From Aedoeadaptatus nemausensis (lineage in GTDB: Bacteria; Bacillota; Clostridia; Tissierellales; Peptoniphilaceae), in contig NZ_CAIJCS010000009.1 in assembly GCF_903819165.1 (NCBI RefSeq), positions 1 to 64,000 of the forward strand: DNA of 64,000 bases. Reading direction: 5' to 3'. The notes below the pieces were generated by a model that did not search any database, was not told the DNA's origin, and saw nothing but the letters and a program-made list of their open reading frames with translations. The translations under genes and the position numbers were made by a program. How positions within the stretch are numbered: the first letter of the stretch is position 1; each line of letters begins with the position of its first letter. Positions 7,903 to 64,000 of this stretch are shown piece after piece.

Positions 7903-10776
7903 ATGAACAAACATTATAAATTAATCGACAAGAGAAACATTCCCGAGCTTCACGGGGAAGTTTCTTTTTTAAAACACATTAAAACCGGCGCGGAGCTTTT
8001 GCTCCTGGACAATAAAAACCACAATAAAACCTTTGCTATCGGCTTTAAGACACCGCCGGAGGATTCTACGGGCGTGGCCCATATTGTAGAGCACTGTACC
8101 CTTTCGGGCTCCCGCAAATACAAGACGAAAGAACCTTTTATGGACATGGTAGCGAGCAGTGTTCAAACTTTTTTAAACGCCATGACCTATCCCGACAAGA
8201 CGCTCTACCCGATCAGTTCCCGAAACGACAAAGATTTTCGCCAGCTGATGGACGTCTATTTAGATGCGGTCTTTTATCCGGAAATGCGCGAGAATGAAAA
8301 GATCTTCTATCAGGAAGGTTGGCATCCGGAAATCGAAGAAGATCGCCTTATCGCAAATGGCGTCGTCTATAACGAAATGAAGGGCGTTTACTCGGATCCC
8401 GCCAATCGCGTCTCCGATATGGTGCGGGAAAAACTCCACCCCTCGGGAACTTATTCTCACGATTCCGGCGGTAATCCCGATTACATTCCCGATCTTACAT
8501 TTGATGATTTCTTAGATTTCCATAGTCGATACTATCGTCCATCCAATAGTTATATTTTCCTCGCAGGAGACATGGATTTTGAGGAACGATTGGCTTATTT
8601 GGACGAGGCCTATCTTTCCGCCTTCGACGCCATAGATCCCGAATCCGAAATCGCGGGACACAGTATGTACGACAGCCCCAAGGAGTTTACCGGGACTTAC
8701 GACTTATCGGAAGATGAAGATCCCGAGGGCAAATCTTATTTCGCCCTGTCCTTTTCCTCGAAAGTGGATCCTACGCCGGAAGAACTCCTCCTCAGAAGTT
8801 TCTTCCAGGAGCTCCTCGTGGAAAGCGAAAACGGCCTTATTAAAAAGAGACTTCGGAATGCAGGCATCGGCGAAGACGTGTACTCCGAGCTTTCCGCCTC
8901 CAACACCTGGGACTTTACGATCTTCTGCTACCACGCCAAGAAGGAACGTTACGAGGACTTCAGACGCATCGTTATGGAGGCCTTGGAAGATGTGGCGAAA
9001 AACGGAATCGACGAAGAGGTTCTCAAGGCCACACTCGAAAAATTTGAATTTACCGTCCGTCGCGGCGGCGGTGCCCACGCCGATTTGATTCAATACATCG
9101 GCGCCTTAAACACCTGGCTATACGGCCAAAACCCCCTGGACGGATTGGAACTATCCCCGAAACTGGAAGCCCTACGGGAAAAAATCGGCACCGACTTTTT
9201 CCAAGAGGCGGTTAAGGAATTTTTCCTAGACGTCCCCCATCGCGTCGCCATGCGCATCGATCCTGAAATCGGTAAAGAAAAGCGACTGGAGGAAAAGCGC
9301 AGAGAGAAACAAAAGGCAGCTTATGCCGCCCTCTCCGATTCGAAGCGGGAAGAGATTGCAGCACTCGCATGCGACTTGAAAGACTATCAGGAAGCCCCCG
9401 ATTCGGAAGAAGCCAAGGCAACCATTCCCAAACTGGAACTTTCCGATCTCTCGAAGAAGATTACTTCCATTCCGAGAAATGTTACGGAGCTTTCGGGCAT
9501 TACCCTTACTACCAATCCCCTAAATACCAACGGCATTATCTACACGAACTGGGCCTTCGATATGAAGCATTTAGATTTGGAAGAACTGGCCTACGCCTCT
9601 ATTCTCTCCGATGTCCTGGGTAAGATTTCTACAGAACACTATACGGAATCGGAGCTTGAAACGGAAACTTTCCTCTCCGGCGGCGGCTTTACATTCGACA
9701 CGCCCGTGGAGCAGATGGAGGAAGGCTATGTGCCCTACTTCTTCATTTCCACCGGCGCCCTTCCCCGTCAACAGGCCAGAGGCTATGCCGTCTTGGAGGA
9801 AATGCTCTCGAAGAGCAAACTTCACGATAAAGGACGACTCAAGACGATTCTCGAGACTATGAAGGCGGATATGGCCTCATCTTTCCTCCAGTCGGGCCAC
9901 TCCATCGTGTCCAATCGCGTCCGCGTCCATTACAGCGAGGCCGCTTTTGTGGACGATGCTCTTAACGGCTTGGACTTTTACTTCTTCGTCTGCAACCTTA
10001 TCGAAAAAGGCGATTATCAATCGGTCGCCGACAAATTGGAAAAGGTGGCGAAAAAAACCTTCACTACCTCCCGCTTAACGGCCAATCTTATTGCCGACGA
10101 AGAGGAGATCCTTATGGCGGAAGCTGCCCTAGCCGATCATCTCCACCATTTCGATCAAGCGGTCTACGACAACTCCGTGATTTCCTTCGAAAAAAGTGAT
10201 CTCAACGAAGCCTTCACGCTGAATTCCATGGTCAACTATGTCTCCAAAGGCGGGAGTTTGAAGGAAGCGGGCTACGAATACAACGGCAAGCTCGTCGTCC
10301 TCGCCAATGTACTCAGCAATTTATTTCTCCACAAGGAAATTCGCGCCAAGGGCGGCGCTTACGGCGCAGGCATTCGCATCACCCGCTTCGGCGATGTAGC
10401 CACCTATTCTTACCGCGATCCCCAGGTGGAAAAAACAATAGATGTCTACGATCATATGGCGGATTTTTTGAAGGATCTGTCTTTAAGTGAACGGGATCTT
10501 ACGGATATGATCATCGGAGTTATGAACGCCTTCGATCCCCACTTGGCTCCGTCCGCTTACGGCGTCTTGGACTTTAAGCGCTTCTTAAACGGCACCACAA
10601 CCGAAGCCATCGAGAAGCGGAAGGCCGAAGCCATGACCACCACCGTGGACGACCTGCGCGGTTTCAGCGATCTGATCCGAAAAACTATGGCGCAAAACAA
10701 TCTCGTGGCCATAGGTGACGCAGAGCGCTTAAAATCCGGCGAACTCTTCGACGTCTATCGCTCACTAAAACAATAA
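7903..10776 (+). CDS. M16C-family zinc metallopeptidase (presequence-protease-like)
   Basis: A 957-residue peptidase, the usual size for the M16C group (PreP/Cym1 and bacterial relatives). The inverted zinc motif HIVEH (residues 60-64) supplies two zinc-binding histidines and the catalytic Glu63; the third ligand is probably the Glu in VVYNEMKGVYSDP. Two M16 halves joined by a central helical region form the closed chamber typical of the family. No signal peptide or membrane segment is seen, so it probably degrades short peptides in the cytoplasm. TAGGAGTGAACC precedes the ATG. It stands alone on the plus strand with its own promoter and terminator, divergent from the SAF oxidoreductase gene. 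Confidence 0.93.
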   Translation: MNKHYKLIDKRNIPELHGEVSFLKHIKTGAELLLLDNKNHNKTFAIGFKTPPEDSTGVAHIVEHCTLSGSRKYKTKEPFMDMVASSVQTFLNAMTYPDKTLYPISSRNDKDFRQLMDVYLDAVFYPEMRENEKIFYQEGWHPEIEEDRLIANGVVYNEMKGVYSDPANRVSDMVREKLHPSGTYSHDSGGNPDYIPDLTFDDFLDFHSRYYRPSNSYIFLAGDMDFEERLAYLDEAYLSAFDAIDPESEIAGHSMYDSPKEFTGTYDLSEDEDPEGKSYFALSFSSKVDPTPEELLLRSFFQELLVESENGLIKKRLRNAGIGEDVYSELSASNTWDFTIFCYHAKKERYEDFRRIVMEALEDVAKNGIDEEVLKATLEKFEFTVRRGGGAHADLIQYIGALNTWLYGQNPLDGLELSPKLEALREKIGTDFFQEAVKEFFLDVPHRVAMRIDPEIGKEKRLEEKRREKQKAAYAALSDSKREEIAALACDLKDYQEAPDSEEAKATIPKLELSDLSKKITSIPRNVTELSGITLTTNPLNTNGIIYTNWAFDMKHLDLEELAYASILSDVLGKISTEHYTESELETETFLSGGGFTFDTPVEQMEEGYVPYFFISTGALPRQQARGYAVLEEMLSKSKLHDKGRLKTILETMKADMASSFLQSGHSIVSNRVRVHYSEAAFVDDALNGLDFYFFVCNLIEKGDYQSVADKLEKVAKKTFTTSRLTANLIADEEEILMAEAALADHLHHFDQAVYDNSVISFEKSDLNEAFTLNSMVNYVSKGGSLKEAGYEYNGKLVVLANVLSNLFLHKEIRAKGGAYGAGIRITRFGDVATYSYRDPQVEKTIDVYDHMADFLKDLSLSERDLTDMIIGVMNAFDPHLAPSAYGVLDFKRFLNGTTTEAIEKRKAEAMTTTVDDLRGFSDLIRKTMAQNNLVAIGDAERLKSGELFDVYRSLKQ

Positions 10777-62415: not shown

Positions 62416-62440
62416 TGAAAAAAGCGCCTTGGGCGCTTTT
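62416..62440 (-). terminator. Terminator of copper ATPase gene
   Basis: AAGCGCC, TTG, GGCGCTT with A/T runs on both sides, immediately past the ATPase stop codon and just upstream of the PC4-like gene. Confidence 0.85.
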
Positions 62441-62441
62441 T

Positions 62442-62648
62442 TTATGCCACCGATACGACGGTATAACCGGCATCTTCTACCGCTTTTTTAAGGACATCCT
62501 CCGAAAGGTTTGCGCCTTCCACTTTGGCTTCGCCCGGTTCCAATGTTACCGTGGCCTTGACGCCGTCAAGGTCGTTTAACGCTTTTTCAACGCGTCCCAC
62601 GCAGTGTTGGCAGCTCATACCTTCGATAGTTAATGTTTTATGTTCCAT
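62442..62648 (-). CDS. Nested in-frame CopZ-like copper chaperone (internal start in copper ATPase)
   Basis: The last 68 codons of the ATPase frame begin with an ATG (62646-62648) preceded at eight bases by AAGGAGG, the best kind of ribosome-binding site in this genome. The product would be a free HMA protein: MEHKTLTIEGMSCQHC with the metal-binding CxxC at residues 13-16, and a full beta-alpha-beta-beta-alpha-beta length of 68 residues, the size of CopZ. So the same sequence may be made both as a C-terminal domain of CopA and as a soluble chaperone. Whether the separate form is made is inferred. Confidence 0.6.
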   Translation of the reverse strand: MEHKTLTIEGMSCQHCVGRVEKALNDLDGVKATVTLEPGEAKVEGANLSEDVLKKAVEDAGYTVVSVA

Positions 62649-64000
62649 AAAAATTTCCTCCTTTTTACCTTCTTTGTCTTTATACCCTTTTACTCCGGGA
62701 TTATCAATATTATTTTCATTCTTTAAAGAAATTAATTTCGGTTCAACGGAAATCTCACCGGTTTCCGAACGATCCGCCTCTTCCAACTTTACGAGATTTA
62801 AGCGAAGGGCGTTTGTTACGACGAAGACCGAGCTGAAACTCATGGCGAAGGCGGCGATCATGGGGCTGAGCGTCCAGCCGAAGGATTTATAAAATACCCC
62901 TGCCGCCACGGGAATACAAATCACATTGTAGAAGAAGGCCCAGAATAAATTCTGCTTAATGTTGCGAATGGTGGCTTCGGAAAGTTCCACGCCGCTCACC
63001 ACATCTAAGAGATCGCTGTGCATTAAGACCACGTCGGCACTTTCCATGGCGATATCCGTTCCGGCGCCGATGGCAATGCCCACATCGCTTCTAGCAAGGG
63101 CCGGGGCGTCGTTAATGCCGTCGCCGACCATAGCGACCTTCCCTTCTTCCTGATACTTCCGCACAAAGGCTTCTTTTTCGTCGGGCAGGACGCCGGCGTG
63201 AATTTTATCGATGGCGAGATCTTTACCGATCACTTCCGCCGTCTTTTCATTGTCGCCGGTGAGCATAATAATACGCTTGCCCTTGGCCTTTAGTTTTTCC
63301 AGGGCTTCCTTCGAATTTTTCTTCACCACATCTTTCGCGGCGATAAATCCGAACAGCTCTTTCTCCGTTGCGAAAAAGAGAGGTGTCTTTCCTTCGTTGA
63401 GCGTGCGTTGAAGTTCGCCTTCTACGCCGCTTAAAGAATGTCCCAGCTCTTCCATTAAGCGAATATTGCCGCCGTAGAAAACTTCGCCGTCGATAGTGGC
63501 TTTCAGTCCCCTACCGGGAAGGGCCTCGAAATCTTTTACATCTTCGGCCGCTTTCTCGCCGTATTTTCCTTCGAAGCTGCGAATAATACCTTCCGCCAAG
63601 GGATGCTCCGAAGGTTTTTCAAGGGCATAGGCCAATTCGAAAAGGGATTCCGCACTTCCATGTAAGGCAACTACGTCGGTAACGAAGGGCTTACCGTTGG
63701 TGATGGTGCCCGTCTTGTCTAAAATCAGTGTATCCACTTCGTGGAGGAGTTCCAAACTTTCCGCACTCTTGTAGAGCACGCCGGCCTTGGCGCCCTTCCC
63801 CGTGCCTACCATAATGGCGACGGGTGTAGCCAGGCCGAGGGCGCAGGGGCAGCTGATGACGAGAACGGATATGGCGAGACGCAGGGCAAATTCCTTGTCG
63901 GCGCCTAGGAAGAGCCACACCGCCGCCGTAATCAGAGAAATGGCGATGACGATGGGCACAAAGACCCCGGCCACACGATCGGCGATCTTCGATATAGGTG
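62442..64000 (-). CDS. copA: Copper-type P1B-ATPase with C-terminal HMA domain (5' end outside window)
   Basis: At least 510 codons of a heavy-metal ATPase; the N-terminal part lies beyond the window end. Seen here are the membrane segment with CPCALGLATPVAI, the phosphorylation site DKTGTITNGKP, the GDGINDAPALARSDVGIAIG hinge and the last membrane pair with YNVICIPVAAG, residues typical of copper(I) exporters (CopA). After the last helix a linker of about 45 residues leads to a HMA domain with GMSCQHC near the C-terminus. N-terminal HMA domains, usual in CopA, cannot be checked. A strong internal ribosome-binding site precedes the HMA part. Confidence 0.93.
   Translation of the reverse strand, partial: PISKIADRVAGVFVPIVIAISLITAAVWLFLGADKEFALRLAISVLVISCPCALGLATPVAIMVGTGKGAKAGVLYKSAESLELLHEVDTLILDKTGTITNGKPFVTDVVALHGSAESLFELAYALEKPSEHPLAEGIIRSFEGKYGEKAAEDVKDFEALPGRGLKATIDGEVFYGGNIRLMEELGHSLSGVEGELQRTLNEGKTPLFFATEKELFGFIAAKDVVKKNSKEALEKLKAKGKRIIMLTGDNEKTAEVIGKDLAIDKIHAGVLPDEKEAFVRKYQEEGKVAMVGDGINDAPALARSDVGIAIGAGTDIAMESADVVLMHSDLLDVVSGVELSEATIRNIKQNLFWAFFYNVICIPVAAGVFYKSFGWTLSPMIAAFAMSFSSVFVVTNALRLNLVKLEEADRSETGEISVEPKLISLKNENNIDNPGVKGYKDKEGKKEEIFMEHKTLTIEGMSCQHCVGRVEKALNDLDGVKATVTLEPGEAKVEGANLSEDVLKKAVEDAGYTVVSVA

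Follow-up and report, generated by a model that had tools for sequence, protein, structure and literature searches.

The copper ATPase gene copA of Aedoeadaptatus nemausensis ends in an HMA domain which is preceded, inside the reading frame, by a Shine-Dalgarno (SD) sequence and an ATG. This raises the question of whether the domain is made only as the end of the pump or also as a separate copper chaperone of the CopZ type. The locus lies in a window of 64,000 nucleotides (NZ_CAIJCS010000009.1, positions 1 to 64,000), which is the whole stretch of DNA analysed here, and a first-pass annotation had proposed two products from its one frame. That proposal was supported by the anatomy of the gene, by conservation and by distribution, and it is very likely that a single copA mRNA yields a CopA-CopZ fusion together with free CopZ, the latter by internal initiation. 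From its sequence we infer that initiation takes place at this site in the cell, and that the product would be stable and act as a chaperone. Direct support comes from the sequence anatomy, the conservation, the codon signature and the complementary distribution with standalone copZ genes.

Table 1. Features of the 3' part of copA and of the putative nested gene in the window
Feature	Coordinates	Strand	Remarks
copA, C-terminal part, 518 codons and stop	62442..64000	-	gene runs on past the window
Lys/Glu/Asn-rich linker, ATPase core to HMA domain	62649..62780	-	core boundary approximate; peptide unconserved
Internal Shine-Dalgarno AAGGAGG	62657..62663	-	spacer 8 nt; predicted anti-SD pairing -11.8 kcal/mol
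Internal start ATG	62646..62648	-	in frame with copA, where the C-terminal HMA domain begins
Putative nested copZ, 68-residue HMA/CopZ-type ORF	62442..62648, stop included	-	GMSCQHC motif
Terminator-like hairpin and T-run	62418..62441	-	directly 3' of the copA stop; by eye

The coordinates of these features (Table 1) and the open frame confirmed the initial reading of an AAGGAGG lying 8 nt ahead of an in-frame ATG at 62648, where the HMA domain starts after a charged linker. In the genome, the open frame of copA comprises 875 codons, with HMA domains at both ends, the N-terminal one being outside the window; its stop codon is at 62444-62442 on the minus strand, and the frame is open throughout the nested site. 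The likely start of copA, an ATG at position 9037 of locus L006, has its own AAAGGAGG ahead, and the context of this start, AAAAAGGAGG-TTTT-ATGGAACA, closely resembles that of the internal ATG. The C-terminal part present in the window was by itself given 413.7 bits by TIGR01511 (cut-off 397) and the CPC motif of copper ATPases was present as SCPCALG; on these subfamily criteria, the copA product is classified as a Cu(+)-exporting P1B-1 ATPase. A hairpin similar to that found 3' of copA was seen by eye in 8/8 genus members, and the hairpin of the window was not among the elements listed by the consensus scan. The gene next after copA was absent from the HMA matches of the window's genome.

The 68-residue ORF matched the HMA domain over residues 5-63 (PF00403, 5.6e-14, 52.7 bits, cut-off 24.8) as well as solved CopZ structures (1k0v, 9.9e-13; 2qif, 1.7e-12), and it constitutes an HMA domain of about 70 residues carrying MxCxxC (GMSCQHC) in an ORF of its own. 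Its best NCBIfam matches were CopZ models, all of them scoring under their curated cut-offs (NF047957, 69.4 against 85; NF033795, 60 against 91; NF033794, 59.1 against 95), and as judged from these matches the ORF is CopZ-like. According to the scheme proposed here, translation from the normal start would give the CopA ATPase with its CopZ domain tethered C-terminally, and ribosomes loading directly at AAGGAGG-N8-ATG would give a free, soluble CopZ of 68 residues, which would carry Cu(I) to the pump. Selection would then keep both readings, that is, no stop between the two parts and a working ribosome-binding site.

Conservation of the start and of its SD was analysed at several taxonomic levels, the end of the ATPase core being located in relatives by a tblastn anchor. 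Within the genus, the fusion and an ATG at the same position were found in 8/8 genomes, with AAGGAG or GAGGAG ahead and differing linkers; the copA locus of one member (G003) was identical around the domain to NZ_LR134523.1. The family sample comprised 130 genomes, of which 124 had a match; 110 loci were analysed, and 14 genomes with low-ranked matches were left out. CopA-HMA was fused at 87 of the 110 loci, and a start with an SD of <= -6 kcal/mol was present at the domain start in 84 of these 87 genes and in 25 of 26 genera (81 ATG, 2 GTG and 1 TTG), the three failures being all three genomes of genus g33. For the class, 293 genomes were sampled, 248 of them with a match, and the 64 non-family loci analysed were the best-ranked of the list; the rows left out were the second matches of G156 and G361 together with G237, G313, G388 and G293, and G247 was included from beyond three of these six rows. 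Fifty-two of the 64 loci were fused, with start and SD present in 51 at <= -4 and in 45 at <= -6 kcal/mol; 38 of 43 genera passed at the latter threshold. The conservation of the internal ribosome-binding site among relatives that the first-pass annotation called for was thus borne out in the family (84/87) and in the class (51/52 at <= -4).

A further set of named records contained 77 fused loci out of 80, 76 of which passed at <= -4 and 69 at <= -6, but these records had been picked by peptide patterns, one of them spanning the linker (KKEEIFME), so that the set is biased toward the site. By title, it covered Lachnospiraceae, Ruminococcus, Butyrivibrio, Selenomonadaceae, Megasphaera, Christensenella and one Bifidobacterium, and it also included MAGs labelled Spirochaetaceae and Synergistaceae. 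Four named-record loci were the same sequences as loci in other sets, and pooled counts are therefore given on 212 distinct fused loci. The site passed at <= -4 in 207 of them, with 199 ATG, 5 GTG and 3 TTG starts. Non-ATG starts at L077, L087, L091, L135 and L230 lay 8 codons ahead of the GMxC motif and had a strong SD; three passes appeared doubtful by eye, namely L144 (GTG, -6.3), L185 (GTG, placed 13 codons ahead of the motif) and L240 (TTG, -5.0). The scan retains the best start found over 13 codon positions, so that a small number of passes may have arisen by chance. In other windows within these genes, scanned identically, a start with an SD of <= -6 was encountered in 6.3% of cases for the family (n=31,582), 8.4% for the named records and 9.3% for the class, and among 3,029 further in-frame Met codons, taken from the family and named-record genes, 7.2% had such an SD. 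An in-frame start with its SD inside a longer gene is accordingly kept among relatives, and its occurrence at the domain start is not a matter of local chance.

The sequence of the site was then compared with what its codons and peptide would be expected to give. SD energy was under the synonymous-codon expectation in 61/69 genera, leaving 8/69 in which it was not, and under that of codon-permuted linkers in 69/69. Over the distinct loci of the three sets, the GAG:GAA ratio was 166:113 in the site versus 156:689 in the remaining linker, and that of AAG:AAA was 99:98 versus 215:705. The family mean SD energy was -9.5 as observed and -5.2 after synonymous resampling, which yields part of the SD strength because Lys-Glu and Lys-Gly-Glu already spell an SD-like sequence. 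Among 65 genera with a recognised core, the SD was in codon phase 0 only in 41, in phase 2 only in 20, in both in 2, and in phase 1, alone or with phase 0, in 2. Because of these differing phases, the residues ahead of the start vary (Lys-Glu-Glu, Lys-Gly-Glu, Gly-Gly, Gln-Glu). The start region was also less structured than linker permutations in 61/67 genera. Its low structure relative to the remaining copA (67/69 genera) was discarded as a signal, being largely an effect of the A-rich linker, and only the linker-permutation comparison was used for this reason. These data indicate that selection acts on the nucleotides of the internal site, beyond peptide and codon expectation.

The survey of standalone copZ genes took in 53 family genomes out of 130, hand-chosen for spread (internal start, 33; fused but devoid of it, 3; unfused, 17), together with 45 out of the 52 class genomes in which copA is fused. 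HMA matches were listed in the family down to about E 3e-9 and small HMA genes were typed, larger HMA frames (e.g. in G023 and G179) being outside the survey; CopZ-type genes were called by eye, on the strength of GMxCxxC and of BLAST matches to fused domains at roughly 50 bits and above. A standalone CopZ-type gene was present in 2 of 76 genomes with the internal start (G073 and G257, both divergent), and no other CopZ-type gene was found in the remaining 74 among the matches listed and small frames typed. Some genomes with the internal start, that of the window (L004) among them, carry small HMA proteins that belong to a different type (motifs such as DLDCANC and PTCPSC). Standalone CopZ-type genes were found in 15/17 genomes with an unfused copA, the HMA survey revealing none among the matches listed for the other two, G061 and G081. 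The site was absent from 4 of the 139 fused genes of the family and class samples (L020, L021, L022 and L263), which belong to two lineages, the three g33 genomes and G247. Relatives that are fused without an internal SD, held at the outset to speak against a second start, thus do exist, but each of their genomes (4/4; G096, G097, G098 and G247) has a separate CopZ-type gene, as the hypothesis predicts; that of G247 is directly upstream of copA. The difference between 2/76 and 4/4 or 15/17 corresponds to Fisher p values of 9e-6 and 2e-13, respectively, relatedness being ignored. The nested start and the standalone copZ gene therefore show a complementary distribution.

A few genomes deserve separate mention. 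G295, whose TTG is doubtful and in which a CopZ domain occurs at another place, was kept out of the 76/4 table. One named-record locus, L134, lacks the site, which is preserved in a second copA of its genome. Three named genomes were inspected for an absent or odd site: G411, where such a second copA is present, G413, where a 120-aa frame encodes an HMA protein, and G412. In G412, which carries the doubtful GTG of L144, a standalone CopZ was not found at E <= 1e-8, and this genome counts against the rule linking internal start and standalone copZ if that GTG is unused. Copper ATPase and chaperone genes were also found as separate neighbours within the family (e.g. L060, L079, L101 and L109-L113).

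Other explanations can be considered for the site. The SD and ATG could be the relic of an ancestral separate copZ, the domain now being only a tethered C-terminal metal-binding domain, and the separate copA-copZ neighbours of the same family make it plausible that the fused parts descend from such a pair. Decay would be expected of a relic, however, and SD and start persist over dozens of genera in which the linker has diverged, in varying phase and with changes between start-competent codons. Moreover, each of the four fused genes devoid of the site shares its genome with a separate CopZ-type gene. We regard a relic as very improbable. An SD-like stretch might otherwise act as a translational pause that aids folding or insertion of the pump before its last domain. 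SD-like sequences within genes have been proposed to slow ribosomes, and the site comes after the last transmembrane part of the pump. A pause of this kind would not require a start codon at constant spacing, yet an ATG, GTG or TTG (199/5/3) is present in 207/212 distinct fused loci, and the complementary distribution with standalone copZ would not be predicted either, which leaves this possibility with very little likelihood.

The remaining alternative is that a Lys-Glu-rich peptide is kept as a flexible charged linker, its codons yielding the SD incidentally. Position -5 is Lys in 106/211 passing loci and position -4 is Glu in as many, and the fairly strong mean SD still obtained by synonymous resampling is in keeping with this idea. 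Gly nevertheless occupies -4 in 51/211 passing loci, so that different peptides spell the same nucleotides. The enrichment of GAG and AAG is limited to the site, the SD is stronger than the synonymous expectation in most genera (61/69), and an absence of codon bias at the site, on which this alternative turns, is contradicted by the counts. A mere linker peptide thus seems most unlikely, and internal initiation is retained as the preferred reading.

The first-pass annotation had likened the gene to a copA-copZ pair that had lost its stop codon, the second start being kept. A recent local loss does not agree with the extent of the fusion, which is widespread in the class and represents no recent local event. 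When 174 ATPase cores were placed on a FastTree tree, the 139 fused genes showed two changes of state of the start, and at least 9 changes, undirected, separate fused from unfused genes, many inner branches of this tree being poorly supported. Fission had been considered from the shared frame of copA-copZ pairs (9/9 separate pairs of the class sample) and was rejected: most rows came from a search that continues past stops within a single frame, and a common frame is consequently no sign of fission. The class sample contained three further unfused loci without copZ nearby.

In E. coli, the short product CopA(Z) is the N-terminal domain of CopA, made by a frameshift and early termination; here, the C-terminal domain is concerned and an internal start is proposed. 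According to PMC9548414, which cites Meydan 2017 and its confirmation by Drees 2017, and to PMC7558416, CopA(Z) arises by -1 programmed frameshifting, and the two systems are alike in that a single copA gene gives a pump and a small HMA chaperone. A parallel for the mechanism is offered by SctQ/HrcQ of type III secretion, for which PMC8553256 describes an internal in-frame start giving the C-terminal domain as a separate protein beside the full-length one; the proteins are unrelated, and the short form is proposed there to be a chaperone of the long form and a part of the sorting platform. Operons of copA and copZ, mentioned in PMC7558416, comprise the same two functions side by side, but a stop splits them into two genes, where the gene studied here is a single continuous frame. 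Among the papers listed from an open-access library, to which most subscription papers do not belong, no description of an internal copA start was found.

We consider it quite probable that the seemingly missing copper chaperones of Clostridia and some relatives are nested in copA behind a second start. This would be a long-conserved and selected system of one gene for two proteins, which would solve the problem addressed by the E. coli frameshift with a different mechanism and at the other end of the protein, and would tie chaperone supply to the pump mRNA. If so, the source of a copper chaperone in many anaerobic Firmicutes that lack a separate copZ would be accounted for, and in two bacterial groups one copA would serve for both pump and chaperone, each group using its own translational route. 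Annotation easily misses a nested in-frame start, since the frame is already assigned; a test for conserved SD and start could therefore uncover further such genes.

Promoter-like elements were also observed around copA. In the linker of the window, GGGTATAAA occurs at 62707-62679 (minus strand), with TTGATA 17 nt ahead; GGGTATA was found in the linker of 8/8 genus members and GGGTAT in L015, and GGGTACAAT or GGTTACAAT in that of the five g31 loci examined. The GGGTATA element may serve as a promoter inside the gene, or it may reflect a short peptide motif, Gly-Tyr-Asn. A conserved GGGTATAA stretch upstream in the genus was rejected as a second copper promoter, as it is located outside the copA promoter region; the consensus scan, which demands a final T, did not list it. 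Ahead of copA in L007-L014, a copA promoter-like element consists of TTGACA and an extended -10 (TAGGAT-like) around TTGGTAGGATATAA, with variants in several members. A CsoR-family gene was not found in the window's genome at E <= 0.001. An ArsR-like regulator (by eye) adjoins a 74-aa HMA-like protein with DLCPNC at 1414-1947 of L004 (contig 22 of the window's genome, G000), and small HMA proteins with a motif similar to DLCPNC (DLDCANC, PTCPSC) were typed in many surveyed genomes.

Two variations on the arrangement were noted. CopA of L044, L062, L063, L065, L066, L069, L072, L075, L078, L082, L089, L092 and L094 (g36 and g37) ends in a tandem HMA pair, and at these loci a strong site, AAAGGAGA in most, stands before the last HMA domain. 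In L311 (G295; minus strand, about 1201-600), a CopZ domain lies in frame after the apparent end (by eye) of a sugar-isomerase-like ORF, with AAAAGGAG and then an ATG ahead of it; this may be a further nested copZ, housed in a different gene.
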